From Saccharopolyspora sp. NFXS83 (GTDB lineage: Bacteria; Actinomycetota; Actinomycetes; Mycobacteriales; Pseudonocardiaceae), in contig NZ_JAPFGB010000014.1 in assembly GCF_026241095.1 (NCBI RefSeq), positions 1 through 64,000 on the forward strand: a stretch of 64,000 nucleotides of DNA, read 5' to 3'. Position 1 is the stretch's first letter, and each line of letters opens with the position of its first letter. Shown in pieces: positions 4,282 through 64,000 of this stretch. The notes under the pieces were generated by a model, which was not told the DNA's origin, did not search any database, and saw only the letters and a program-made list of their open reading frames with translations. Both the position numbers and the translations under genes were made by a program.

Positions 4282-5526
4282 TCAGACCCCCGCCGGTTCC
4301 GGTGTCCGCTTGCGCTCCAGGCGGTCGAACAAGGTGAGCAGCGGCGTCGCCATGATCGTCGTGACCAGGGCGACGACCACGAGCACGCTGAACAGCTGCG
4401 GCGTCACGATGCCCGCCGCGAGCCCCACGTTGATCGCGATGAGCTGCATCAGCCCGCGGGCGTTCATCAGCGCGCCGACGCGGACGGCGACCGAGTTCGG
4501 CTCCCCCGCCAGCCGCGCGGCGGCCCAGCAGGCACCGAGCTTGCCCACGACCGCCACGAACACCGCGCCGATCGTGAACAGCAGCAGCCCCGGATCCAGC
4601 AGCAGCGCCATGTTCGTGTTGAGCCCCGAATAGGTGAAGAACAACGGCAGGAACAGCGTGCTGACCGGCTTCATCGCGTGCACCGCCGCGTCGACGGCCG
4701 CCGATCGCGGCAGCACCACTCCGAGGCTGAACGCGCCGAACACGGCGTAGAGCCCGATCTTGTCCGTGTACCAGGCGGCGAAGAAGAGCACCACGACCAC
4801 GGCCATCAGCAGGTGCTCCGGGTTGAGCCGCCGCACCGCGCGTTGGGCCCGGCCCCCGGCGCGGACGATCGCGACGAGCACCACGACGAACACCGCGCTG
4901 CCGCCGGCCGTGATCGCGAACGGGCCGATGCTGGCGGCGCTGATGCTGAGCACTCCGGCCAGCAGCACCCACGCGACGGCGTCGTCCACCGCGCCGGAAG
5001 CCAGCGACAACGACCCGAACCGGGTGCCGGACAGCCCCCGTTCGGTGATGATCCGAGCCAGCATCGGGAACGCGGTGATCGCCAGCGTGACACCCACGAA
5101 CAGCGCCGAGACCAGCAGCGGCACGCCCGGTGGGAACATGCCACCGGTGTCCGCGGCGATCCAGGTCAGCGCGATCCCCAGCAGCAGCGGGGTGAGCATC
5201 CCGGCCACCGACACCAGGGACGCGGGCCGCGCGACCTGGCGCAACCGGTCCACCCGGAACTCGTAGCCCGCCTGGAACATGAACACGACCAGCCCGATCT
5301 GCCCCACCACGTACAGCACCGGCCGCAGCGCCTCCGGGAACACGGCCTGCTCCGCGGCGGGCGCGATCCAGCCGAGCAGGGACGGGCCGAGCACCACCCC
5401 CGCCACCATCTCCCCCACCACCGGAGGCTGCCCGAAGGCCCGCAGCACGCGCCCGACCAACCGGCAGCTGACCAGGATCACGATCGCCGCCAAGAAGAAC
5501 GCCGGGGCGAGTTCGGTGGGGGACAT
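4282..5526 (-). CDS. Cation/proton antiporter, CPA2 family
   Basis: This 414-residue polytopic membrane protein has about 11-12 hydrophobic spans. Diagnostic segments are QPPVVGEMVAGVVLGPSLLG near the N-terminus and the ion-binding SGAVDDAVAW motif (about residues 177-186), whose paired aspartates carry protons and cations. It lacks the cytosolic TrkA/KTN domain found in KefB/KefC, so it is the short form. It lies 78 bases downstream of the P450 gene on the same strand and could be cotranscribed with that oxidative cassette, where such antiporters may give self-protection or export. That role is inference. Confidence 0.85.
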   Translation of the reverse strand: MSPTELAPAFFLAAIVILVSCRLVGRVLRAFGQPPVVGEMVAGVVLGPSLLGWIAPAAEQAVFPEALRPVLYVVGQIGLVVFMFQAGYEFRVDRLRQVARPASLVSVAGMLTPLLLGIALTWIAADTGGMFPPGVPLLVSALFVGVTLAITAFPMLARIITERGLSGTRFGSLSLASGAVDDAVAWVLLAGVLSISAASIGPFAITAGGSAVFVVVLVAIVRAGGRAQRAVRRLNPEHLLMAVVVVLFFAAWYTDKIGLYAVFGAFSLGVVLPRSAAVDAAVHAMKPVSTLFLPLFFTYSGLNTNMALLLDPGLLLFTIGAVFVAVVGKLGACWAAARLAGEPNSVAVRVGALMNARGLMQLIAINVGLAAGIVTPQLFSVLVVVALVTTIMATPLLTLFDRLERKRTPEPAGV

Positions 5527-5604
5527 GGTGCTTCCTCCGCGGGAGAGGGGCGCGACGACGCGCGCCGGACGGCGATTCCGTGCTGCTGCGGGAGATTCGA
5601 GACG

Positions 5605-6966
5605 TCAGCGGTGCGCCGGGCAGCCCGGCGGGGGTTGTTCGAAGTAGCGTCCGGCGAGGCGTTGCCTGCGGGCGTCGAGCACCATCCAGGTCCCCAGCAC
5701 CAGTTGCCGCAGGCTGCACTCGACGTCCTCCCACCGGTCGCGCACGCGCAGCAGACCGAGGACCGCGGCGGTCCCCCGCTCCGGCGCGCCCCGGCGCACC
5801 AGCAAGCACGGCCCGCGCGAGGGCAGCGACCGGGTGTGGCGCACGCTGGAATCGAGCCGGAACCGGCGCAGCACCTCCCCCGTCACCGCGCGCATCACCA
5901 GCGGCGACAACCGCCACGCCGGGCAGGGCCGGTTCGCGGCGATGCCGAACGGGACGTGCGGCACGTCGCGGGCGGAGAGCTCCGCCCAGCGGCACGGGTC
6001 GAACACCTCCGGGTCCCGGTGGCCGCTCGCGTGGTAGTCGGGATAGCTGAAGCACAGCACCGATCCGCGCGGCAGCGTGGTGTGCTCGTCCACGTCGATG
6101 TCGCCGGTGGTGATGCGGTGCGCGATGCCGAACAGCGGGAACACCCGCAGCGCCTCGTCGAGCACGTGGGAGAAGTAGCGCTCGTCGGACGGGTTCGCCG
6201 CGAGCCGCTGCTGCACGTCGTGGTGCTGGGCGAGCACCAGCAGCAGGTGCGCCATCGCTTCCGAGAGCTGCACGACCGAGGTGTTGAAGAACGTGCCCTG
6301 CAGGTAGTGCACCTGCTCGGGGATGTCCAGGGTGGCGGGCAGGTCGTGCACCACGTCCCCGGCCTCGACGCGGGCCCGCAGGTAGCGGGTGAGCCGGGCC
6401 CGGCGTTCCGGGTGGCGCAGGCCGGTGCACTTGAGCGCGTTGACGACGTCGGTGGCGTTGCCGACGATGAGATCGCGCGCGCGGCGCGGGCAGGGTTCGC
6501 CGAAAACGAGCTCGTAGTTGAACTCGGCCCAGATCGGCATCATCAGGTCCCGCAACCGCACCGCGGTCACGTCCCCCCGGACCTCCTCGTCGAGGACCGC
6601 CGCCGCGCACCGGGCCGCGGTGGCCGCCAGCGACGCGCTGCTCCCGGCGAGGAAGCGCTGGGTGGTGCGGGCGACGTCGTCGTAGCGCGGGCCCGCCTCG
6701 ATGTGCTCCTGGTGCACTTCGGGGCCGGGCGAGAGCCAGTACCAGAACAGGTCGGAGAGCCCGGCTCCTTCGCTGCGCCCACCTGCGTTCGGGTGCGAGT
6801 AGATCTCGCGGAACTCCTCGGGCCCGAACCGCTCGCCGGGCAGCGTGATCGCGTTGTCGCCGTTGACGAGTTCGAAGACCTTGCCGCGCAGCGCCACCAC
6901 GCGCTGCGGCAACCAGCGCGGCGCGGTCAGCACCGCGGCGGCGGCCAGCACGGGGACCACTCTCAC
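5605..6966 (-). CDS. Cytochrome P450
   Basis: This 453-residue heme monooxygenase shows the K-helix EALR (in VLDEALRVFP) and the heme-ligand loop FGIAANRPCPAW with the cysteine at about residue 348. The expected I-helix (A/G)Gx(D/E)T is replaced by a GTFFNTS stretch, so proton delivery may be atypical. About 105 residues follow the heme cysteine, some 60 more than usual, forming an unrecognised C-terminal extension. The N-terminus has a hydrophobic stretch (VVPVLAAAAVL) that could associate with the membrane. The GTG start at 6966 overlaps the stop of the upstream oxidase gene (GTGA), and GGAGG sits six bases ahead. Substrate unknown; context suggests specialised metabolism. Confidence 0.85.
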   Translation of the reverse strand: MRVVPVLAAAAVLTAPRWLPQRVVALRGKVFELVNGDNAITLPGERFGPEEFREIYSHPNAGGRSEGAGLSDLFWYWLSPGPEVHQEHIEAGPRYDDVARTTQRFLAGSSASLAATAARCAAAVLDEEVRGDVTAVRLRDLMMPIWAEFNYELVFGEPCPRRARDLIVGNATDVVNALKCTGLRHPERRARLTRYLRARVEAGDVVHDLPATLDIPEQVHYLQGTFFNTSVVQLSEAMAHLLLVLAQHHDVQQRLAANPSDERYFSHVLDEALRVFPLFGIAHRITTGDIDVDEHTTLPRGSVLCFSYPDYHASGHRDPEVFDPCRWAELSARDVPHVPFGIAANRPCPAWRLSPLVMRAVTGEVLRRFRLDSSVRHTRSLPSRGPCLLVRRGAPERGTAAVLGLLRVRDRWEDVECSLRQLVLGTWMVLDARRQRLAGRYFEQPPPGCPAHR

Positions 6967-55347: not shown

Positions 55348-57264
55348 TCAGCGCACCGCGATCACCGCGAACGGACCCGCGTCACGCCGGACGAAGGCGG
55401 CCGAGTCGAACAGCGCCGGGTCGAACCGCACGTCGTAGACCTGGACGTTGGGCTGGTGCGGGAACGCGTCGTGCGACAGCGTCAGGTGCAGCCCGTCGCT
55501 CTCGCGGCGCAGCAGGAACGCGTCCGGCGCCGGGTACGGGCTGCGCCGCAGCAGCGCGGCGAGCTCCTCGGGGCCGCTCGCCGCCGCCCACTCGCGGATC
55601 ACGGCGGCGCGGTCCTCGTAGGCCGACAGCGGGTTCGCGTAGTGCGGCGTCTCCTGCTGGAAGCCCCAGTACGGGGCGAACGACATGATCGGGTGGTAGG
55701 TCGTGAGCACCGTGATGTCCGCCGGTGCGCGCCCCGTGAGATCGCCGAGCGCTGCCGTGAGCTCGTCGTTCCAGGAGCCGGGTTCCGCCGGATCGGCCCG
55801 GCGCTGCGCGTTGGCGCCCGTCGGGTAGTAGTCCTGGTACGCCGGAGCCGCCGACTCGTCCACCGCGGACGCGAGCGCGGTCTCGACGGTGCTCACCGCG
55901 CCCGCCAGCGGCAGCAGGAACCCGAGCACCGCGACCTGCCGCCGGAACCGGGCGTCCAGCCGCGTGCGCGCCCAGCCCCACAGGTCGAGCAGCCCCAGCA
56001 CTCCGGCCACCGCCAGCAGCACCTCCAGCGCGGCCGTGGTCCGGAACGCCAGCAACGTCGTCTGCGCCGCCACCGCCAGCGCCGACAACCCGAACCACGC
56101 GTACACCGAGGCCGTCAGCACCAGCAGCGCCGCCGCGGCCTCGCTGCGCCGGAACGCCAGCACCAGCCAGCAGAAACCGGCCAGGCACAACGCGCCGAAC
56201 AAGGTCGGTTCGAGGAACGGGAACGGCGGCACCGACTCCGCGGGCAGGTACCGGTTCGCCGCGCCCGCCGACCCGGCACCGCCCAGCTTCGCCAGCACGA
56301 ACGGCGCCCACACCAGCAGCGCCACCGCCGCCGCGACCGCGCCGATCACCGCGAGCCGCAGCGCCGGCCCACCGGCCACGCGGCGCCACGCGCCGCCCGC
56401 CCGCAGCCGCCGCGCGGCGACCACGGCCGCCATCACCACCAGCACCATCGTGGCGAACGCCAGGTACAGCGCGTAGGTGATCGCGGCGAAGCCCAGGAAC
56501 AGCCCGAGCCCCACCGTCGCCGCCCGGTGCGGATGCTCCCGGCAGCGCAGCACGTGCCAGGCCGCCACCGCGACCGGCACCAGCCACGCCACCGACATCC
56601 ACGCGTACGGCTCGTCGAAGCCGCGCAGGAACCCGCTGAGCGTGGTGGCGACCGCGCACAGCACGGCGATCCGCCTGCGGACCACGACGCTCCACAACGT
56701 GAACGCGACCCCGGCGGTCACCGCGATCGTCAGCAGCGCGAACGGCTTGAACGCGGCCCACGCCGGCATCCCGGTCAGCTCGGCGAAGCGGCCCCCGAGC
56801 CAGAACCAGCCCGCCGGGTAGTACGGCGCCAGGCCCGGGTAGTTCATGTCGGCGAGCGCGGGCGAGTCGGCGAACCGCGTCAGGTACTGCATCCGGAACA
56901 TCTGGTCGACGGAGACGCCGCCGTAGTACAGCCGCGTCGGCTCCAGCGGCCACGCCAGCACGGTGGTCGCCAGCGCGGGCAGCGCCACCCACACCGCGGG
57001 CAGCCGCAGTGCCGCGGGAATCCGGTCCGCCCAGCGGGCGCCGCCGAGCAGCAGCGCCAGCAGCAGCGCGGCGCAGGCGGTGGCGGCGAGCGCGGGGAGC
57101 TCGGTGGGCTCGCTGAGCCCGAGCCGGGCGATGGGGAACTGCACCGCGAGGCTCACGACGACGGCCACCAGCACGACTACCGAGAGTTCGCCTGCCAGCC
57201 GCCGCGGCGACATCCGGAGCGAGCATCCCTGCGCATCGCCTGCGCCACCTGCGGCCGAGCCCAT
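55348..57264 (-). CDS. aftA: Galactan 5-O-arabinofuranosyltransferase, AftA-like
   Basis: This GT-C membrane enzyme of about 638 residues adds the first arabinofuranose from decaprenyl-phospho-arabinose onto cell-wall galactan. About 11-13 spans are followed by a soluble extracytoplasmic C-terminal domain (about 480-638). The conserved loop YYGGVSVDQMFRMQYLTRF with LADMNYPGLAPYYPAGWFW (about residues 113-152) contains the acidic residues typical of AftA. Translation may start at M18 (57213). Its presence implies an arabinogalactan wall. Confidence 0.85.
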   Translation of the reverse strand: MGSAAGGAGDAQGCSLRMSPRRLAGELSVVVLVAVVVSLAVQFPIARLGLSEPTELPALAATACAALLLALLLGGARWADRIPAALRLPAVWVALPALATTVLAWPLEPTRLYYGGVSVDQMFRMQYLTRFADSPALADMNYPGLAPYYPAGWFWLGGRFAELTGMPAWAAFKPFALLTIAVTAGVAFTLWSVVVRRRIAVLCAVATTLSGFLRGFDEPYAWMSVAWLVPVAVAAWHVLRCREHPHRAATVGLGLFLGFAAITYALYLAFATMVLVVMAAVVAARRLRAGGAWRRVAGGPALRLAVIGAVAAAVALLVWAPFVLAKLGGAGSAGAANRYLPAESVPPFPFLEPTLFGALCLAGFCWLVLAFRRSEAAAALLVLTASVYAWFGLSALAVAAQTTLLAFRTTAALEVLLAVAGVLGLLDLWGWARTRLDARFRRQVAVLGFLLPLAGAVSTVETALASAVDESAAPAYQDYYPTGANAQRRADPAEPGSWNDELTAALGDLTGRAPADITVLTTYHPIMSFAPYWGFQQETPHYANPLSAYEDRAAVIREWAAASGPEELAALLRRSPYPAPDAFLLRRESDGLHLTLSHDAFPHQPNVQVYDVRFDPALFDSAAFVRRDAGPFAVIAVR

Positions 57265-57378
57265 GATCAGGTGACTATACGTATCTAAGACTCACTCGCA
57301 AGAGTGAAAAGGAGGAGCCGACGACAAGACCAACGACCGCTGATCCGAACGGATCGCACCGCCGTCGCGCCGCGGTGC

Positions 57379-58014
57379 TCAGTCCGGGCGGAGCCCCTGG
57401 GCCAACCGGGCGAACGCCGAGTCGAGGTGATCGTGCAGAGCGGAATCCGGGTCGGCCCGGTGCCAGCACTGGATCGCCACCCGCAGCGTCGTCACCGCCG
57501 TCGCCGCCAGCTGCCGCACGTACGGATCCTCCTGCTCGCTCCCGGTGCGGCGAGCCAGCCCTTCGGCCAGCGCCTGCTCCAAGTCCCACGAGGCCAGCGC
57601 CACCCGGCTCACCAGGTCGGGGTGATCGCGCAGGACCAAGGCCTGATCGCGCCAGGTGGGCGCGGCCATCGCGGTGTCGATCGCCTCCCCGAGCACCTGG
57701 TGCACGACGCTCAGCAACGATTCCGCGGCCGGGCGGTCGACGATGCGCCGCGCGGTGCTCCCGACGGTCTGCGGATCCCAGGGGACCAGCACCTCTTCCT
57801 TCGAGGCGAAGTAGTTGAAGAAGGTGCGCGCCGACACGTCCGCCGCGGCGCAGATGTCCTCCACGGTGACCGACACCGGGCCGTGATCCCGGAACAACCG
57901 GACCGCGGCCTGCTGCAGCGCCCGCCTGGTGGCGCGCTTCTTGCGCTCGCGCAGGCCCTCCTGCTCGCGCGGCGGGAGGTCGCCGGACGCTCGGGGCATC
58001 GTGGTTCTGGACAT
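57379..58014 (-). CDS. TetR-family transcriptional regulator
   Basis: This 211-residue repressor has an N-terminal helix-turn-helix at about residues 22-68 (RRALQQAAVRLFRDHGPVSV, ICAAADVSARTFFNYFASKE; the RTFFNYFASKEE recognition helix is typical of TetR efflux regulators) and a helical ligand domain. It is divergent from the exporter-like membrane protein at 58373. The gap between them has a 35-bp palindrome that is its probable operator. It may thus sense a product of the oxygenase/methyltransferase/acyltransferase cassette further on. Confidence 0.9.
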   Translation of the reverse strand: MSRTTMPRASGDLPPREQEGLRERKKRATRRALQQAAVRLFRDHGPVSVTVEDICAAADVSARTFFNYFASKEEVLVPWDPQTVGSTARRIVDRPAAESLLSVVHQVLGEAIDTAMAAPTWRDQALVLRDHPDLVSRVALASWDLEQALAEGLARRTGSEQEDPYVRQLAATAVTTLRVAIQCWHRADPDSALHDHLDSAFARLAQGLRPD

Positions 58015-58139
58015 CCTGGGCTCCCGTTCACGGATCCGTCGCGGCCGGATGCACGTCGGGCCGTCCATCGTAGTGCGCGGCACCCCCGGCACTCCGACTC
58101 CGCCCCAACCGGACAAAGCACGACACCGGGAAAAAGTTG

Positions 58140-58174
58140 CAGTACGTGCATTCTTGCATCGAATGCAGGTACTG
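58140..58174. promoter_or_regulatory. 35-bp TetR-type operator palindrome
   Basis: CAGTAC-g-TGCATTC, a seven-base centre, then GAATGCA-g-GTACTG: thirteen paired bases per arm with a single mismatched pair. It lies between the divergent TetR gene and the membrane protein gene, in a gap (58015-58372) with no other gene. Confidence 0.75.
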
Positions 58175-58372
58175 ATACCGTTTCGGAGCCCGGGTCGCCG
58201 GGGCAGCAGGCATCGTCGCCGCGCCCGGAGTCCCGCATCGCCGACATCGCCCCGCACTCGACTCCGCGCAGCCGACCTGTCACGGGGCGCCCGGACGGCG
58301 GTTCGCCGCACTCGATCCGCAGCCCGGCACGAGCTCACCCGCTCACGCCGCCACCGAGACAAGGAGCAAGTC

Positions 58373-59695
58373 GTGCCCGAGCAGCAGCCGACATCGCTGG
58401 TCCGCACCCTGGCATCGTCGCTGTGGTTCCCGATCTTCTTCATCCTCGGCTTCGTGCTGTGCTACCTGCTGCCGTTCCACGCGCCGTCGCCGCACCACTT
58501 GCCGGTGGTGGCCGTCGGCGAGCAGGTCGCCCAGCAGCTCGACGCGAAGTTCGCCGCGGCACTGCCCGGCGGAGTCGACGTGGCCGCCGTCCCCGACGCC
58601 GCGGCGGCTCGCGCGGCGATCACCGACCGGGAGGCCGTCGCCGCCTACGACCCGGCCTCGGGCGAACTGTTCTACGCCAAGGCCAACGGCGCCGCCCTGG
58701 TGCAGTTCCTGCAGCAGATGTTCACGCCCGTCGCCGCCGCGGGCGGGCATGCGCTGACCACCGTCGACCTCGCCCCCACCGCCCCGGGCGACGTGCTGGG
58801 CACCGGGCTGTTCTACCTGCTGCTGGCGATGAACATCCCGCCGTACGTCACGGTCATGGTGCTGCTGCGCGCCGAACTCACCACCCGCCAGAAGCTGCTG
58901 TCGCTGGTCGGCGTCGGAGCGTTCGCCTCGATCGTCTGCTACGCGGCGGGCCGCCTCCTCGACGTGATCCCCGCGCACCCGGTGGTGGTGCTGCTCGGGT
59001 TCCTGCTCACCCAGGCCGTCGGCTGGACGACGTTCGGCCTGGTGCCGCTGGTGAAGCAGTTCATCCCCGGTGTCGCCATGACGCTGTTCGTGCTGCTGAG
59101 CATGCCCTCCAGCGGCGGGGCGATCCCGAAGGAGCTGGTGCACCCGTTCTTCCAGTTCTTCCACCTGCTGCTGCCGCTGGGCGAGGCGGCCGACTCGATC
59201 CGCGGCATCCTCTACTTCGACGGCGCCGGATCGTGGCCGGGGATCGTCGGGCTCGTGGCCTGGTGCGTGGCCGGGGTGGCGCTCACCGCCGCGACCCAGT
59301 GGTACGCGAAGCGCAAGCAGGACCGGGACCCGGAGGCCGTGGCCGAAGCCGGTTCCTACGAGCACGAGGACGACAGCGCAACCGTGGTCGACCCGCTCTT
59401 CGAGCCCCCGCAGCCCGCGCACCACCGGACGCTGGCGGGCAGCGTCCGGCTGCGGGGCGACGTGCCCGCGGCGGGCGCCGTGGTGACCGTGACGGACTCG
59501 GCGGGCAACCAGCTCGCGCGGGTCGACGCCGACGCCGACGGCTGCTACGAGGTGCACGACCTGCCGGACCGGTTCGTCACCGTCGTCGCCGCCGCGCGCG
59601 GAGCGGCACCCGCGGCCAGCCGGGTCTCGGTGCCGAACGGGCGCAGCGGTCACGACTTCGTGCTCGTGCCGATCTCCGAGCCCGCAGGGCGCTGA
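58373..59695 (+). CDS. YhgE/ABC-2-type membrane protein with C-terminal carboxypeptidase-regulatory-like domain
   Basis: This 440-residue protein has one N-terminal span (LWFPIFFILGFVLCYLLPF), an extracytoplasmic domain (about 45-135), five further spans (about 140-310, including MNIPPYVTVMVLLRAELTTR and SMPSSGGAIPKELVHPFFQF), then a cytoplasmic-side linker. It ends in a beta-sandwich of the carboxypeptidase regulatory type (GSVRLRGDVPAAGAVVTVTD to VPNGRSGHDFVLVP). The plan resembles YhgE/Pip proteins linked to export or phage infection. GTG 58373 follows AAGGAGCAAGTC. TetR control suggests an inducible export function. Confidence 0.7.
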   Translation: MPEQQPTSLVRTLASSLWFPIFFILGFVLCYLLPFHAPSPHHLPVVAVGEQVAQQLDAKFAAALPGGVDVAAVPDAAAARAAITDREAVAAYDPASGELFYAKANGAALVQFLQQMFTPVAAAGGHALTTVDLAPTAPGDVLGTGLFYLLLAMNIPPYVTVMVLLRAELTTRQKLLSLVGVGAFASIVCYAAGRLLDVIPAHPVVVLLGFLLTQAVGWTTFGLVPLVKQFIPGVAMTLFVLLSMPSSGGAIPKELVHPFFQFFHLLLPLGEAADSIRGILYFDGAGSWPGIVGLVAWCVAGVALTAATQWYAKRKQDRDPEAVAEAGSYEHEDDSATVVDPLFEPPQPAHHRTLAGSVRLRGDVPAAGAVVTVTDSAGNQLARVDADADGCYEVHDLPDRFVTVVAAARGAAPAASRVSVPNGRSGHDFVLVPISEPAGR

Positions 59696-59992
59696 GGCGA
59701 TCTCCCGAGGGGCGCGGCCGATCCGGTCACGCCCCTTTACACGTCGCGGCACCGGAGGCACAAAGCGATCCCGATCACACGATCCGCGTTCGCGAACCTG
59801 CTGCGCTCCCAGCAAATCCGCTAATTTGATCTTCGCGAGAAAAACCGCCCGGATTCCCCGACGCGGCGGGCACCCGCCAGTAACCGCGCCATGCCAGATT
59901 CGTTGGATCCGGAGTACACCGCAGCGGCGCGGATCGCGTGCACCGGGCCCGCTTCGCTCGGGTCGGTGAACTCGACGTGCGGAGAGGACCAC

Positions 59993-60862
59993 ATGAGCGC
60001 ATCCGAGTCCCCACTGGTCGAGCGAGTGGTCGACACGACCCGCTACCCCCTCGCGGAACCGGACGGTCCCGGCTGGACCGAGGTGGTCGCCCGTGCTCGC
60101 CACGACCTGGCCGAGCACGGCTGCAGCGTGCTGCCCGACTTCATCCGTCCCGCGCTGCAGGAGGAACTGCGGCGGGAATGCGCGGAGATCGCGCCGGAAG
60201 CGCACTACGACGTCGAGGTCGTCAACGCCTACAACATCGACACCAGCATCGAGCTGCCTCCGGAGCACCCCGGCCGCAAGACCCTGGAGCGCGGCAACGC
60301 GTTCGTGGCGCGCGACCAGATCCCCGCCGAGGCCATCATCCACCGGCTCTACGCGAACCCGCTGTTCCAGCGGTTCCTCGCCGACTGCGTGCAGCTGCCG
60401 CGGATCCACCCGCTCGCCGACCCGCTGGCCGGGCTCACGCTCAACGTCGTCAATCCCGGCATGGCGCACCCGTGGCACTTCGACACCAACGAGTTCGCGG
60501 TCAGCATGCTGACCCAGGAACCGGAGTCCGGCGGCGGATTCGAGTACTGCCAGGACATCCGCTCCGGCGACGAGGAGAACTTCGACGACGTGCGGGCCGT
60601 GCTCGACGGCGACGGCGAGCACCTCGTCCGGCGGCTGACCTTGCGGCCCGGCGACCTGCAGCTGTTCAAGGGGCGCTACTCGCTGCACCGGGTCACCGAG
60701 GTCGGCGGGTCGACGGCGCGCTACTCGGCGATCTTCGCCTACAGCGAGCGGCCCGGAGTCATCGGCAGCGTCTCGCGCACCAAGCAGATCTTCGGCCGGG
60801 TCCTGCCCGAGCACGTAGCGGCCGAGGGCAACGCCGTGCGCGGCGACGCGCTGCTCGACTGA
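59993..60862 (+). CDS. Non-heme iron 2-oxoglutarate-dependent oxygenase
   Basis: This 289-residue cupin-fold enzyme shows a facial triad: H162 and D164 in HPWHFDTNEF, H232 in RYSLHRVTEV, with R243 (TARYSAIFAYSERPG) to bind 2-oxoglutarate. Because the second ligand is Asp, not Gly or Ala, it should hydroxylate or desaturate rather than halogenate. It is not of the TauD/gamma-butyrobetaine-hydroxylase type by eye. GGAGAGGACCAC precedes ATG 59993; an upstream ATG at 59891 lacks such a site. It is first of three closely spaced genes with a methyltransferase and an acyltransferase. Confidence 0.8.
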   Translation: MSASESPLVERVVDTTRYPLAEPDGPGWTEVVARARHDLAEHGCSVLPDFIRPALQEELRRECAEIAPEAHYDVEVVNAYNIDTSIELPPEHPGRKTLERGNAFVARDQIPAEAIIHRLYANPLFQRFLADCVQLPRIHPLADPLAGLTLNVVNPGMAHPWHFDTNEFAVSMLTQEPESGGGFEYCQDIRSGDEENFDDVRAVLDGDGEHLVRRLTLRPGDLQLFKGRYSLHRVTEVGGSTARYSAIFAYSERPGVIGSVSRTKQIFGRVLPEHVAAEGNAVRGDALLD

Positions 60863-60894
60863 CCACGTCCCCCCTCGCAGAGGAGCACCGGCCC

Positions 60895-61704
60895 GTGCAG
60901 TTCGATTCCACCGGAAAAGTCACGCTGGACCACATCTACACCCGTCCCGATCCGCGGGACTACTTCCGCACCTTGCGGACCCTGGACTACCGGATTCCGC
61001 AACTGGCGAAACCGTACTTCGGCAAATTCCTCGACGAGTACCGGCAGGCACGCCAGGTGGCGGTACCGACGGTCGTCGACATCGGCAGTTCCTACGGCAT
61101 CAACGCCGCGCTGCTGAAGTGCGACGCGGCGCTGGACGAGCTCTACGCGCACTACACCGACCCGGCCGCCGATTCGCTGGGGCACGAGGAGATGCTGGCC
61201 CGCGACCGGGACTGGCTGCGGGCGCGCGGCGGCGGGCGCGACGCGCGGTTCATCGGCCTCGACACCTCGCGGCCCGCCCTGGACTACGCCCTCGACGCCG
61301 GGTTCCTCGACGACGTCGTGCACGCCGACCTGGAGGCGCGGGAACCGGACGAGCAGCAGCGGCGGCGGCTCGCCACCGCCGACGTGGTCGTGTCCACCGG
61401 TTGCCTCGGCTACGTCGGGGAGCGCACGGTCCGCCGCATCGCCGACGCCGCGGGACCGCGCAAGCCGTGGATGGCGCATTTCGTGCTGCGCATGTTCCCG
61501 TTCACCGAAGTGGCCGCGAGCCTCGCGGAGCTAGGCTACGAAACCGTGCACGTCGACGGCGCTTTCGAACAGCGCCGGTTCGCCTCGCCGCAAGAACGGG
61601 CCCTGATGCTGGACACGCTGGCCGGCGCCGGAGTTTCCCCGGACGGCTTGGAAAGCGAGGGCTGGCTCTACGCGGAACTGTTCCTGTCCCGACCACCCGA
61701 ATGA
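60895..61704 (+). CDS. Class I SAM-dependent methyltransferase-like protein
   Basis: This 269-residue protein has the SAM-binding motif I VVDIGSSYGINAALLK (about residues 60-75), an acidic loop after the second strand (RFIGLDTSRPALDYALDAG) and VVVSTGCLGYVGE for motif IV. The N-terminal 55 residues (TLDYRIPQLAKPYFGKFLDE) and the rest do not point to a known substrate class; O- or N-methylation are both possible. GTG 60895 follows GAGGAG. Its stop overlaps a possible ATG of the acyltransferase gene. Confidence 0.8.
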   Translation: MQFDSTGKVTLDHIYTRPDPRDYFRTLRTLDYRIPQLAKPYFGKFLDEYRQARQVAVPTVVDIGSSYGINAALLKCDAALDELYAHYTDPAADSLGHEEMLARDRDWLRARGGGRDARFIGLDTSRPALDYALDAGFLDDVVHADLEAREPDEQQRRRLATADVVVSTGCLGYVGERTVRRIADAAGPRKPWMAHFVLRMFPFTEVAASLAELGYETVHVDGAFEQRRFASPQERALMLDTLAGAGVSPDGLESEGWLYAELFLSRPPE

Positions 61705-63572
61705 CACCGCGAAGCACCGCCGAATACCCGACCCCCCATTTCGCGAGGATGACCGTGAACGACACACAGCAATGGTCCACCCGAACCTTCGGAAACGAGG
61801 ACCGGCTGCCGCGCGTGCCGGTGCCCACGCTGGAGAACAGTTGCGCGCGCTTCCTCGAATGGTGCGCGCCGCTGCTGACCGCCGACGAGCTCGCCCGCAC
61901 CGAGCAGGCCGTCGCCGAGTACCTGCGCCCCGAGAGCCCGGCCCGCGCGCTGCACGCCGACCTGGAGCGCTTCGACGCGAGCGAGGGCGTGCACAGCTGG
62001 CTCGACGAGTTCTGGCCGTCGCGCTACCTCGGCAGGCGGGACCGGATCGCGCTGAACGCGAACTTCTTCTTCCTGTTCCAGGACTCCGAGCTCGGGCAGA
62101 TCGATCGCGCCGCGGGGCTCATCGCCGGCGCGGTGGCCTACAAGCAGGCCCTCGACGAGGAGGCGCTGCCGCCGCTGGTCCAGCGCGGCCAGGCGTCCTC
62201 GATGGAGCAGAACAAGTTCCTGTTCTCCACCACCAGGATTCCCGGTGAGCAGCAGGACACCGTGCGGACCCCGTACTCCGCCGACCACCCCGGTCCGTCG
62301 CCCGCCCGGCACATCGTGGTGTTCTTCCGCGGCAACCTGTTCCGCCTCGACGTGATCGCCCCCGACGGCACGCCGCACGACCTCGCGGACCTGGCAGCCG
62401 GGCTGGAAGAGGTCCGCAAGGCCGGTTCCTCGCGCGCCACCGTCGACGACGCCGTCGGGAACCTCACCACGAAGGCCCGCGCGGACTGGGCGCGGACGCG
62501 TCAGCGGCTGCTCGACCTCGGCAACGCCGAGGAGCTCGACACCGTGGAGTCGGCGTTGTTCTGCGTGTGCCTGGAGGACTTCGCGCCCACCGACACCCAG
62601 GAGGCATGCGACCAGCTGCTGCACGGCGACAGCGGCAACCGCTGGTTCGACAAGGCCGTGTCGCTCATCGTCTTCGAGGACGGCCGGGCCGGCATCAACG
62701 TGGAGCACTGCGGCCTGGACGGCACCACGATCCTGACGTTCGTCGACGCCCTGCTTAACTCCACGCCCGAGCAGCACGCCGCGAACTCCGGGGCGCGCTC
62801 GCAGGGCACCCCGGAGGTCGCGGGCGTCGAGTTCACCCTCGACGACGCGCTGCGGGCCGAGGTGCGCGGCGCGGCGGGCGCGTTCGCCACCTTCGCCGCC
62901 GAGACCTCCAACAAGATCCTGGCGTTCGAGGACTTCGGCTCGGACCGGGCGAAGCGGCTGGGCATGTCCCCTGACGCGTTCGTGCAGATGGCGTACCAGC
63001 TCGCCCACAAGCGCACCAAGGGCATCGGCGCCACCTACGAGTCGATCGCGACCCGGCAGTGGCGGCACGGCCGCACCGAGGCGATGCGGGTGGTGACTCC
63101 CGAGATCGTCGAGTTCGTGACCACGATGGACGATCCCGCGGCGGACGCGGCGAAGCGCACCGCGGCGTTCCGGGCCGCCGCCGACAAGCACGTGGCGCGG
63201 GCCAAGCAGTGCCAGGCAGGGGACGCACCGGAGCAGCACCTGTGGGAGCTGCAGCTCGTCCAGCGCCGCCGGGGCACCGAGCTGGGCGCGACCGAACCGC
63301 TGGCGCTCTACGACACGCCGGGCTGGAACATCATGCGCGACGACTACCTGAGCACCAGCTCGGCGCCGTCGACGAACATCCAGTACTTCGGCTTCGGCTC
63401 CACGAGCGGGAAGTGCATCGGCGTGGCCTACGTGCTGCTGCCCGACCGGCTGCACCTCTACCTGAGCACGCCGCTGGCGGTCTCGGGCGGCATGTACGCG
63501 TTCGCCGACAACCTCCGCACCGCCATGCGCGAGTTGGAGGACCTGCTGATCACGGAGAAGTCCGCGGGCTGA
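61701..63572 (+). CDS. Choline/carnitine-type O-acyltransferase
   Basis: This protein of about 623 residues belongs to the choline/carnitine acyltransferase superfamily. The N-terminal PVPTLENSCARFLEWCAPLL, the QASSMEQNKFLFSTTRIPG segment and the catalytic histidine in INVEHCGLDGTTI (H336) are in the expected order. The CoA-site lysines are suggested by LAHKRTKGIGATYES, and the C-terminal STSSAPSTNIQYFGFGSTSG and YVLLPDRLHLYLS match the family. It should move an acyl group between CoA and a hydroxylated, often quaternary-ammonium, acceptor. ATG 61701 overlaps the methyltransferase stop; ATG 61749 (607 residues) is the alternative. This family is uncommon in bacteria. Confidence 0.85.
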   Translation: MTPRSTAEYPTPHFARMTVNDTQQWSTRTFGNEDRLPRVPVPTLENSCARFLEWCAPLLTADELARTEQAVAEYLRPESPARALHADLERFDASEGVHSWLDEFWPSRYLGRRDRIALNANFFFLFQDSELGQIDRAAGLIAGAVAYKQALDEEALPPLVQRGQASSMEQNKFLFSTTRIPGEQQDTVRTPYSADHPGPSPARHIVVFFRGNLFRLDVIAPDGTPHDLADLAAGLEEVRKAGSSRATVDDAVGNLTTKARADWARTRQRLLDLGNAEELDTVESALFCVCLEDFAPTDTQEACDQLLHGDSGNRWFDKAVSLIVFEDGRAGINVEHCGLDGTTILTFVDALLNSTPEQHAANSGARSQGTPEVAGVEFTLDDALRAEVRGAAGAFATFAAETSNKILAFEDFGSDRAKRLGMSPDAFVQMAYQLAHKRTKGIGATYESIATRQWRHGRTEAMRVVTPEIVEFVTTMDDPAADAAKRTAAFRAAADKHVARAKQCQAGDAPEQHLWELQLVQRRRGTELGATEPLALYDTPGWNIMRDDYLSTSSAPSTNIQYFGFGSTSGKCIGVAYVLLPDRLHLYLSTPLAVSGGMYAFADNLRTAMRELEDLLITEKSAG

Positions 63573-63591
63573 GCGGCACGCTCGGAACAGG

Positions 63592-63626
63592 TCGAGCCCC
63601 GGACGACGTGGTCGTCCGGGGCTCGA
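63592..63626. terminator. Bidirectional terminator
   Basis: A 16-bp perfect stem (TCGAGCCCCGGACGAC with its complement, three-base loop GTG) lies between the convergent acyltransferase and dapA-family genes. Confidence 0.88.
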
Positions 63627-63638
63627 TTCGCGAGGACC

Positions 63639-64000
63639 TCAGGCTGCCAGGAAGCCGCCGGCGACGAGGGCTGCGCGGACCACCTCGGTCTCGGCCTCGT
63701 CGGCCTCGGCCAGGGGCAGCCGCGGGCCGCCGACGGGGTGGCCGAGCAGGTTCAGCGCGGCCTTCACCGGGATCGGGTTCGTCGTCACCGACAGCGCCGA
63801 GTACAGGTCCTTGAGCGAGGCGTCGATCTCCGCGCGGCGCTCCGGCTCGTCGATCATCCGCCGCATCTGCGGGCCCGCGATGTGGCTGGCCACGACGATG
63901 CCGCCCGCGCCGCCCATGTCCAGGGTGCGCGCGAACGTCTCGTTGTTGCCCGCGTACACGCCGAGCCCGTCCACCAGGGCCAGGTTGTCGTCGTTGGCCT
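63639..64000 (-). CDS. dapA: Dihydrodipicolinate synthase (DapA) family protein, 3' portion
   Basis: The visible 120 residues are the C-terminal part of a DapA/NAL-family class I aldolase: VYAGNNETF, then LDMGGAGGIVVASHIAGPQM with the usual loop of the barrel's last strands, KDLYSALSVTTNPIPVKAAL and GGPRLPLAEADE. DapA condenses pyruvate with aspartate semialdehyde in the lysine/diaminopimelate pathway. The catalytic lysine lies outside the window. Side branches of the family (for example N-acetylneuraminate lyase) cannot be fully excluded. Confidence 0.85.
   Translation of the reverse strand, partial: ANDDNLALVDGLGVYAGNNETFARTLDMGGAGGIVVASHIAGPQMRRMIDEPERRAEIDASLKDLYSALSVTTNPIPVKAALNLLGHPVGGPRLPLAEADEAETEVVRAALVAGGFLAA

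Follow-up and report, generated by a model that had tools for sequence, protein, structure and literature searches.

An oxygenase-acyltransferase gene pair conserved among actinomycetes, usually accompanied by a methyltransferase, as a candidate amino-acid-tailoring pathway

What might an iron-dependent oxygenase, a methyltransferase, and a carnitine-type acyltransferase make together in an actinomycete? Three such genes are neighbours in Saccharopolyspora sp. NFXS83 (assembly GCF_026241095.1), within positions 1 to 64,000 of contig NZ_JAPFGB010000014.1, the 64,000-nucleotide stretch that was analyzed and is referred to as the window. All on the forward strand, they code for a 2-oxoglutarate/Fe(II) oxygenase of the HalD/BesD family (2OG enzyme; 59993-60862, 289 aa), a class I S-adenosylmethionine (SAM)-dependent methyltransferase of no named family (MT; 60895-61704, 269 aa, GTG start), and a choline/carnitine-type O-acyltransferase with a variant acceptor site (CAT; 61749-63572, 607 aa). 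A first-pass annotation of the sequence had pointed out these closely spaced genes, and their open reading frames were confirmed, with gaps of 32 bp (2OG-MT) and 44 bp (MT-CAT). It had proposed that they act in one pathway, preceded by a TetR-controlled exporter-like gene, to make an acylated hydroxy-betaine resembling acylcarnitine. The observation itself holds and the interpretation is partly supported: the conserved core of the cassette consists of the 2OG and CAT genes, which are co-inherited, with the MT gene as a frequent third member.

Choline/carnitine acyltransferases are known chiefly as eukaryotic enzymes. Their domain (PF00755) was found in 0 of 14 control genomes and, in a phylum-wide sample, in 5 of 396, one of these being the window's own, which agrees with the earlier remark that such enzymes are uncommon in bacteria. 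The other four matches are two loci from another family of the order (L112, L113), each with the same set of three genes, a distant protein (L114), and a fragment scoring 21.7 bits. A scan of an 84,980-species genome collection returned 431 CAT relatives, of which the best 80 were kept (the 80 loci); a second set of 31 consists of the 30 best-scoring loci of a family search plus the window, and because the two sets share some genomes their counts are not independent. The 80 loci come from Streptomyces, Actinomadura, Nocardia, Frankia, Saccharopolyspora, Amycolatopsis, Actinokineospora, and others. The 2OG gene adjoins the CAT gene in 80 of 80 and in 31 of 31 loci.

The same picture emerges within the family to which the window belongs. 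PF00755 occurs in 160 of its 390 genomes and is absent from 230; within the window's genus, CAT is present in four of six genomes. A profile of the 2OG enzyme matched 161 of the 390 genomes at E <= 1e-10, and comparison of the two lists gave 158 genomes with both. For 142 of these the gene coordinates were compared, and in all 142 the two genes are adjacent on one contig with a gap of 42-1241 bp; 139 pairs are co-directional with the 2OG gene upstream and 3 are divergent. Across 65 loci, the pairwise distances of the 2OG, MT, and CAT proteins correlate with r 0.88-0.90. The first-pass annotation had conceded that homologues scattered elsewhere, or a housekeeping role of the acyltransferase in relatives, would undo the idea of a shared pathway. 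The two core genes are neighbours throughout all three comparisons, and the patchy occurrence of CAT in family and genus speaks against housekeeping. A cassette was also seen in a record titled Candidatus Melainabacteria (L069), with 61-70% identity to the three proteins of the window; since its CAT groups with Lentzea in the tree and the identity is of this degree, the label may be wrong.

The acyltransferase is an unambiguous member of its family (PF00755, 1.9e-157, 525.7 bits against a cut-off of 22.3, covering profile positions 1-572 of 574). Its alignment with CrAT extends over the full length, and profile comparison gave E 6.3e-97 for CrAT and 2.7e-98 for CPT2. The EHxxxDG motif reported earlier is intact (E319-H320-x-x-x-D324-G325, with H320 as the catalytic His) and invariant among the aligned relatives (alignment A1, the window plus 19 of the 30 other best-scoring loci, 20 sequences). 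Residues were also counted over 145 cassette CATs, a set that is redundant between collections and from which L114 was set apart, with truncated copies uncounted and a fragment (L115) unused. Invariant in 145 of 145 are H320 and D324 as well as Y93, W89, Y430, T443, S535, S537, and F549, the equivalents of CrAT Y107, W102, Y452, T465, S552, S554, and F566, which include the residues that form the trimethylammonium cage of CrAT and ChAT.

Two other pocket positions differ from CrAT. At the position of CrAT R518, presumably the arginine that binds the carboxylate of carnitine, all 145 sequences have Gln (Q496 in the window), so that the motif reads EQH instead of DRH. The cassette enzymes thus lack the carboxylate-binding Arg of the carnitine acyltransferases proper, the acceptor is likely to be a compound other than carnitine, judging from this residue pattern, and the term acylcarnitine-like loses ground as a description of the product. 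The position of CrAT M564, on our assumption a residue of the acyl pocket, is Phe in 139 (F547 in the window) and Trp in 6 of the 145; such a bulky residue suggests that the acyl group taken from the donor is short. Among the CrAT residues to which a published account assigns roles (H343, K419, K423, D430, E453; PMC11852590), the counterparts of K423, D430, and E453 are K402, D409, and E431, which are invariant in the 20 aligned sequences, and K419 corresponds to S398 in the window and is absent from the list of invariant positions. The distant actinobacterial protein that had been set apart (L114, also L145; genome G528) is 28% identical and keeps the carnitine-type Arg (DR); no 2OG homologue was found in the 17 kb fetched around it.

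For the oxygenase, the His-Asp-His triad described in the first-pass annotation was recovered as H162-D164-H232, accompanied by R243; the triad is invariant among the aligned relatives (alignment A2, the window plus 38 of 39 non-redundant sequences, L065 being left out). The protein matches the HalD family (PF23169) with 1.8e-13 and 50.9 bits (curated cut-off 26), as do 39 of 39 aligned relatives. The WelO5 family matches 33 of the 39 relatives at E <= 0.01 (best 5.9e-5), and the window protein lies below the curated WelO5 cut-off. The TauD/BBOX-type domain PF02668 was detected in 1 of the 39 (E 0.0048), and the enzyme does not qualify as a trimethyllysine or butyrobetaine hydroxylase. Profile comparison with chains of HalD, HalB, lysine hydroxylase, and lysine halogenase gave weak matches (E 0.0025-0.29) that are interspersed with WelO5-type oxidoreductases. 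An AlphaFold2 model (predicted local distance difference test, pLDDT, 92) was compared with the PDB by Foldseek; the 41 best rows contain BesD, HalA, HalB, HalD, and their hydroxylase homologue and nothing else, with E down to 3.6e-14 and probability 1.00 at an identity of 15-19%.

The metal-site residue is Asp, not Gly, in 126 of 126 2OG sequences, which indicates an enzyme of hydroxylase type. We therefore discarded the possibility that it is a halogenase, as the halogenase branch has Gly (or Ala) at this site. Judged by its predicted structure, the 2OG enzyme is closest to the BesD/HalD enzymes that act on free amino acids, with the metal-binding Asp of a hydroxylase. In simulations of BesD, D239, D143, and E123 hold the amino group of the substrate, and R77, H137, and W241 bind its carboxylate (PMC13244439). 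Aligned via HalD, the carboxylate-side His of BesD falls on H159 of the cassette enzyme, a residue found in 126 of 126 sequences. An amino-acid-like substrate, other than lysine itself, is plausible from these residues.

The methyltransferase is the least defined of the three proteins. In Pfam it has a single match, which is below threshold (Methyltransf_12, 1.9e-4), and its model (pLDDT 91) has no close relative in the PDB. The best 50 Foldseek rows are a mix of C-, N-, S-, and other methyltransferases with query template modelling (TM) scores of 0.31-0.49. These matches, together with a SAM-binding motif (D62-x-G-x-S-Y-G, with D62, S66, Y67, and G68 invariant in 42 sequences), place it among the class I SAM methyltransferases; the 42 sequences are alignment A3, the window plus 41 of 46, with L054, L081, L096, L107, and L113 left out. 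The structural matches, distant and mixed, do not point to one methyl acceptor. N-methylation, and with it a betaine product, is no more than a possibility.

As to its place in the unit, the MT gene lies between the 2OG and CAT genes in 72 of the 80 loci (it is absent from L034, L042, L043, L049, L057, L059, L077, and L087) and is present in 18 of the 31 loci of the second set. The three enzymes had been presented as one unit; this stands for the oxygenase-acyltransferase pair, usually with MT, but the methyltransferase is not obligatory. In the family, its profile matches 133 of 390 genomes at E <= 1e-40. Seventeen cassette genomes whose cassette has no MT were searched (one genome is probably included twice, as L034 and G088): no MT homologue was found anywhere in the genome in 11, and of the other 6, one has a close copy at another place in the genome and five, all Streptomyces, have a more distant paralogue outside the cassette. 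Some lineages have a more distant MT (37-42% identical) located after CAT. Streptomyces cassettes without MT are L042, L057, L059, L077, and L087; L076, which a quick CAT tree puts in the same region, does have MT. As L076 has MT and these five carry a distant paralogue elsewhere, loss of MT within Streptomyces is likely.

Taking these results together, we consider a stand-alone 2OG-(MT)-CAT pathway, in which an amino-acid-like substrate would be hydroxylated, O-acylated with a short chain on an acceptor other than carnitine, and usually methylated; to us the chances for and against this reading are evenly balanced. It builds on conservation, adjacency, co-occurrence, and residue patterns, which are observed, and from these we infer substrate, order of steps, and product. 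The HalD/BesD-type enzyme, going by its fold family and active site, would hydroxylate a free amino acid or a compound closely derived from one. CAT would then, as expected for its family, transfer a short acyl group from CoA onto the new hydroxyl; its acceptor pocket retains the catalytic His, the STS motif, and the aromatic residues and has no Arg for the carnitine carboxylate. Where MT is present, the same molecule may be methylated, perhaps on the amine, to give an acylated hydroxy-betaine or an acyl-choline-like compound; in lineages devoid of MT, the product would be an un-methylated ester, or methylation might come from another source. A more far-reaching version is possible, though less likely than not: the three-gene cassette, in several hundred species, would make O-acylated hydroxy-amino-acid betaines, a new class of actinomycete metabolites. 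We would tentatively add to it that this CAT branch of the carnitine acyltransferase family has been re-tooled for a new acceptor, with a product design akin to that of acylcarnitine or acetylcholine.

Several observations weigh against the proposed pathway. The acidic residues that bind the amino group in BesD, and in the lysine-specific HalD/BesD members generally, are not kept in the cassette enzyme: mapped through the HalD alignment, the position of D143 is mostly Thr165 (120 of 126), and that of E123, which was reached by counting and so probably corresponds to residue 145, is Leu or Tyr (119 and 7 of 126). Lysine itself is therefore an unlikely substrate. In the family, three genomes have a 2OG match of weaker score and no CAT match (G093, G224, and G351, the last a remnant). 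The correlation of protein distances would also be expected from vertical descent alone. MT homologues of 56-61% identity occur in G094, G140, G144, and G168 (L193-L196) with neither 2OG nor CAT in the 11 kb fetched, and these four are not among the genomes with CAT or 2OG matches. Since MT has no close relative of characterized function, is missing from many cassettes, and is solitary in these four genomes, it may lie outside the pathway. In G351, which has no CAT in the genome, positions 5147-6199 of the locus (L200) look like the remnant of a cassette, a match to the 2OG C-terminus (residues 223-280) preceding a full-length MT match.

Among other explanations, the product might be an acylated hydroxy-betaine or an acyl-choline-like quaternary amine that serves as a signal, osmolyte, or secreted mimic, with MT making the quaternary nitrogen. 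The residues presumed to form the trimethylammonium cage, unchanged throughout the 145 CATs, suit this idea, and so do some neighbours, identified by NCBIfam matches below the curated cut-offs. An OsmF/ProV-like osmoprotectant ABC transporter adjoins the cassette in two loci from different genera (L169, L173), and in one genus a choline-dehydrogenase-like gene and an APC permease gene lie upstream of 2OG-CAT in all five fetched loci, with a betaine-aldehyde-dehydrogenase-like gene in four of the five. However, the transporter was seen in 2 of 116 loci, MT is absent from many cassettes, and the choline-dehydrogenase-like gene is also present in four of five cassette-less genomes of that genus. 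It is thus not tied to the cassette, and the choline-oxidation genes were rejected as its partners; we regard this explanation as doubtful. Detoxification, in which a toxic amino-acid-like compound is inactivated by hydroxylation and O-acylation, would account for a stand-alone, patchy cassette in variable surroundings and for two genomes (G374, G375) in which CAT directly follows an amino-acid permease gene. Two dedicated steps, often with methylation, and near-strict co-occurrence would seem more pathway-like, and we think detoxification unlikely. Ordinary carnitine metabolism, with a bacterial carnitine acyltransferase for fatty-acid transport or carnitine use, can invoke the full-length PF00755 match and CPT2 and CrAT as nearest solved relatives. 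It has to contend with the invariant Gln at the carnitine-binding position, where the distant non-cassette L114 has Arg, with the bulky residue in the acyl pocket, with an oxygenase that is not of the TauD/BBOX kind, and with the absence of CAT from most genomes of the family, and is in our view extremely unlikely.

The remaining explanation takes five genes as one TetR-controlled operon for biosynthesis and export. A TetR regulator gene (57379-58014, reverse strand and thus divergent, 211 aa; TetR_N 9.6e-13) and a gene for an ABC-2/YhgE-like membrane protein (58370-59695, forward strand, 441 aa), which ends 297 bp before the 2OG gene, are indeed present upstream, as described in the first-pass annotation. 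The exporter assignment is weak: ABC2_membrane_3 matches with 28.1 bits against a cut-off of 31.6 and YhgE/Pip with 33.7 bits against 102.2, both below threshold; a C-terminal carboxypeptidase-regulatory-like domain (CarboxypepD_reg) is just over its own cut-off. The order TetR-exporter-2OG-MT-CAT recurs in three other genomes of the genus (L146-L148), and synteny with the cassette is limited to these genus-mates: among the 80 loci, none has a TetR or exporter homologue in the flanks, which extend up to 10 kb and less on short contigs. Two genomes of the genus without CAT (G367, G368) have the exporter (73% identical) and an AftA-type arabinofuranosyltransferase (72% identical), the latter encoded in the window at 55348-57264, beyond the TetR and membrane protein genes. 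In G368 (L164) the order is AftA-TetR-exporter-DapA, with a TetR copy of 69% identity beside the exporter and no cassette. When L164 was compared with the window by blastn, homology stopped at 59664 and restarted at 63666, G368 having some 270 bp of different sequence in between; the segment without a DNA match, 59665-63665, comprises the cassette and the terminal bases of both the exporter gene and dapA. Given this empty site and the lack of both genes from the 80 loci, TetR and exporter were rejected as cassette members. A five-gene operon is very unlikely and, for the cassette at large, largely refuted; recruitment of the exporter within the window's genus is possible. The membrane protein has an unusual architecture and stays beside AftA and TetR in the cassette-less genus-mate. 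G367 and G368 each have two AftA copies, 72% and 52% identical to that of the window.

The surroundings of the cassette beyond this genus were analyzed as well. When genes flanking the 80 loci and the window were clustered, two further groups followed 2OG and CAT/MT: one of ABC-ATPase-like proteins, seen at 21 loci with 8 labels (mainly Actinomadura, plus genes of the window itself), and one of protein kinases, seen at 28 loci in 5 genera (mainly Actinomadura and Nocardia). We interpret the two as neighbours of a generic or lineage-specific sort. When 107 of the 228 representatives of neighbouring genes were scanned with Pfam, no partner recurred among the 25 families listed out of 174; MFS_1 was the commonest, in 6 of 107. 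A shared fourth gene across genera was thus rejected, as neither approach ties one to the cassette. At one locus (L141), a LysE-type gene, again matched below the NCBIfam cut-off, lies downstream of 2OG; like the APC permease gene mentioned above, it places a cassette close to an amino-acid transporter, which agrees with an amino-acid-like substrate.

In the family, CAT without a 2OG match is confined to G374 and G375, where no 2OG gene was found in the genome at E <= 1e-10. Their CATs are 57-60% identical and keep the EQH motif (they stand outside the 145-row residue counts, their motifs alone having been read), and the permease gene ends about 10 bp upstream of the called start. This context fits an amino-acid-type acceptor that is imported instead of made. 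Overall, the neighbouring genes give no more than hints of amino-acid or betaine chemistry.

Downstream of CAT, a dapA-like gene, whose C-terminal part lies in the window (63639-63998), is convergent with it. Between the two is a perfect 16-bp inverted repeat with a 3-nt loop (63592-63626), which folds with -36.6 kcal/mol and is a candidate terminator; it has no T-run and is not one of the three sites returned by a terminator scan. An Rfam scan of 57000-64000 gave no match, and none of the 2OG, MT, and CAT proteins matched PHROGs.

The enzyme families involved are known, and what is undescribed in the literature searched is their combination into what would be a small amino-acid-tailoring gene cluster. 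The first-pass annotation knew of no bacterial system with this gene set, and none appeared among the matches listed in a search of open-access full text, outside which most subscription journals lie. A diverged CAT branch is paired near-perfectly with a hydroxylase of the free-amino-acid type, with no other gene consistently nearby, so that the cassette, with its two or three genes, offers a compact pathway open to testing, and the EQH versus DRH motif provides a residue marker for finding it. There is a real chance that the class of product is new. If the proposal is correct, bacteria would have a new type of metabolite, in which a hydroxylated amino acid or betaine carries an acyl ester, and the acyltransferase fold would have a new use.

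Three known systems invite comparison. With the halogenases BesD, HalA, HalB, and HalD and the lysine hydroxylase homologue of BesD, the cassette oxygenase has in common the fold, PF23169, both metal-binding His residues, and the carboxylate-side His; it differs in having Asp where the halogenases have Gly, in not keeping the acids that bind the amino group, in its weak similarity by sequence alone (best E 0.0025), and in its gene partners. With CrAT, COT, CPT2, and ChAT, the cassette CAT shares alignment over the whole length, the catalytic His, the equivalents of K423, D430, and E453, the STS motif, and the pocket Tyr and Thr, whereas it has Gln at R518, a residue other than lysine at K419, and Phe or Trp at M564 of CrAT, and is a bacterial enzyme paired with a 2OG oxygenase. 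In eukaryotic carnitine biosynthesis, trimethyllysine and butyrobetaine hydroxylases act before acylcarnitine is formed. The logic of hydroxylating a small amine with a 2OG enzyme and then O-acylating it is common to both systems, but the cassette would carry it out with another 2OG subfamily, a free-standing methyltransferase, and an acyltransferase that lacks the carnitine-binding Arg.

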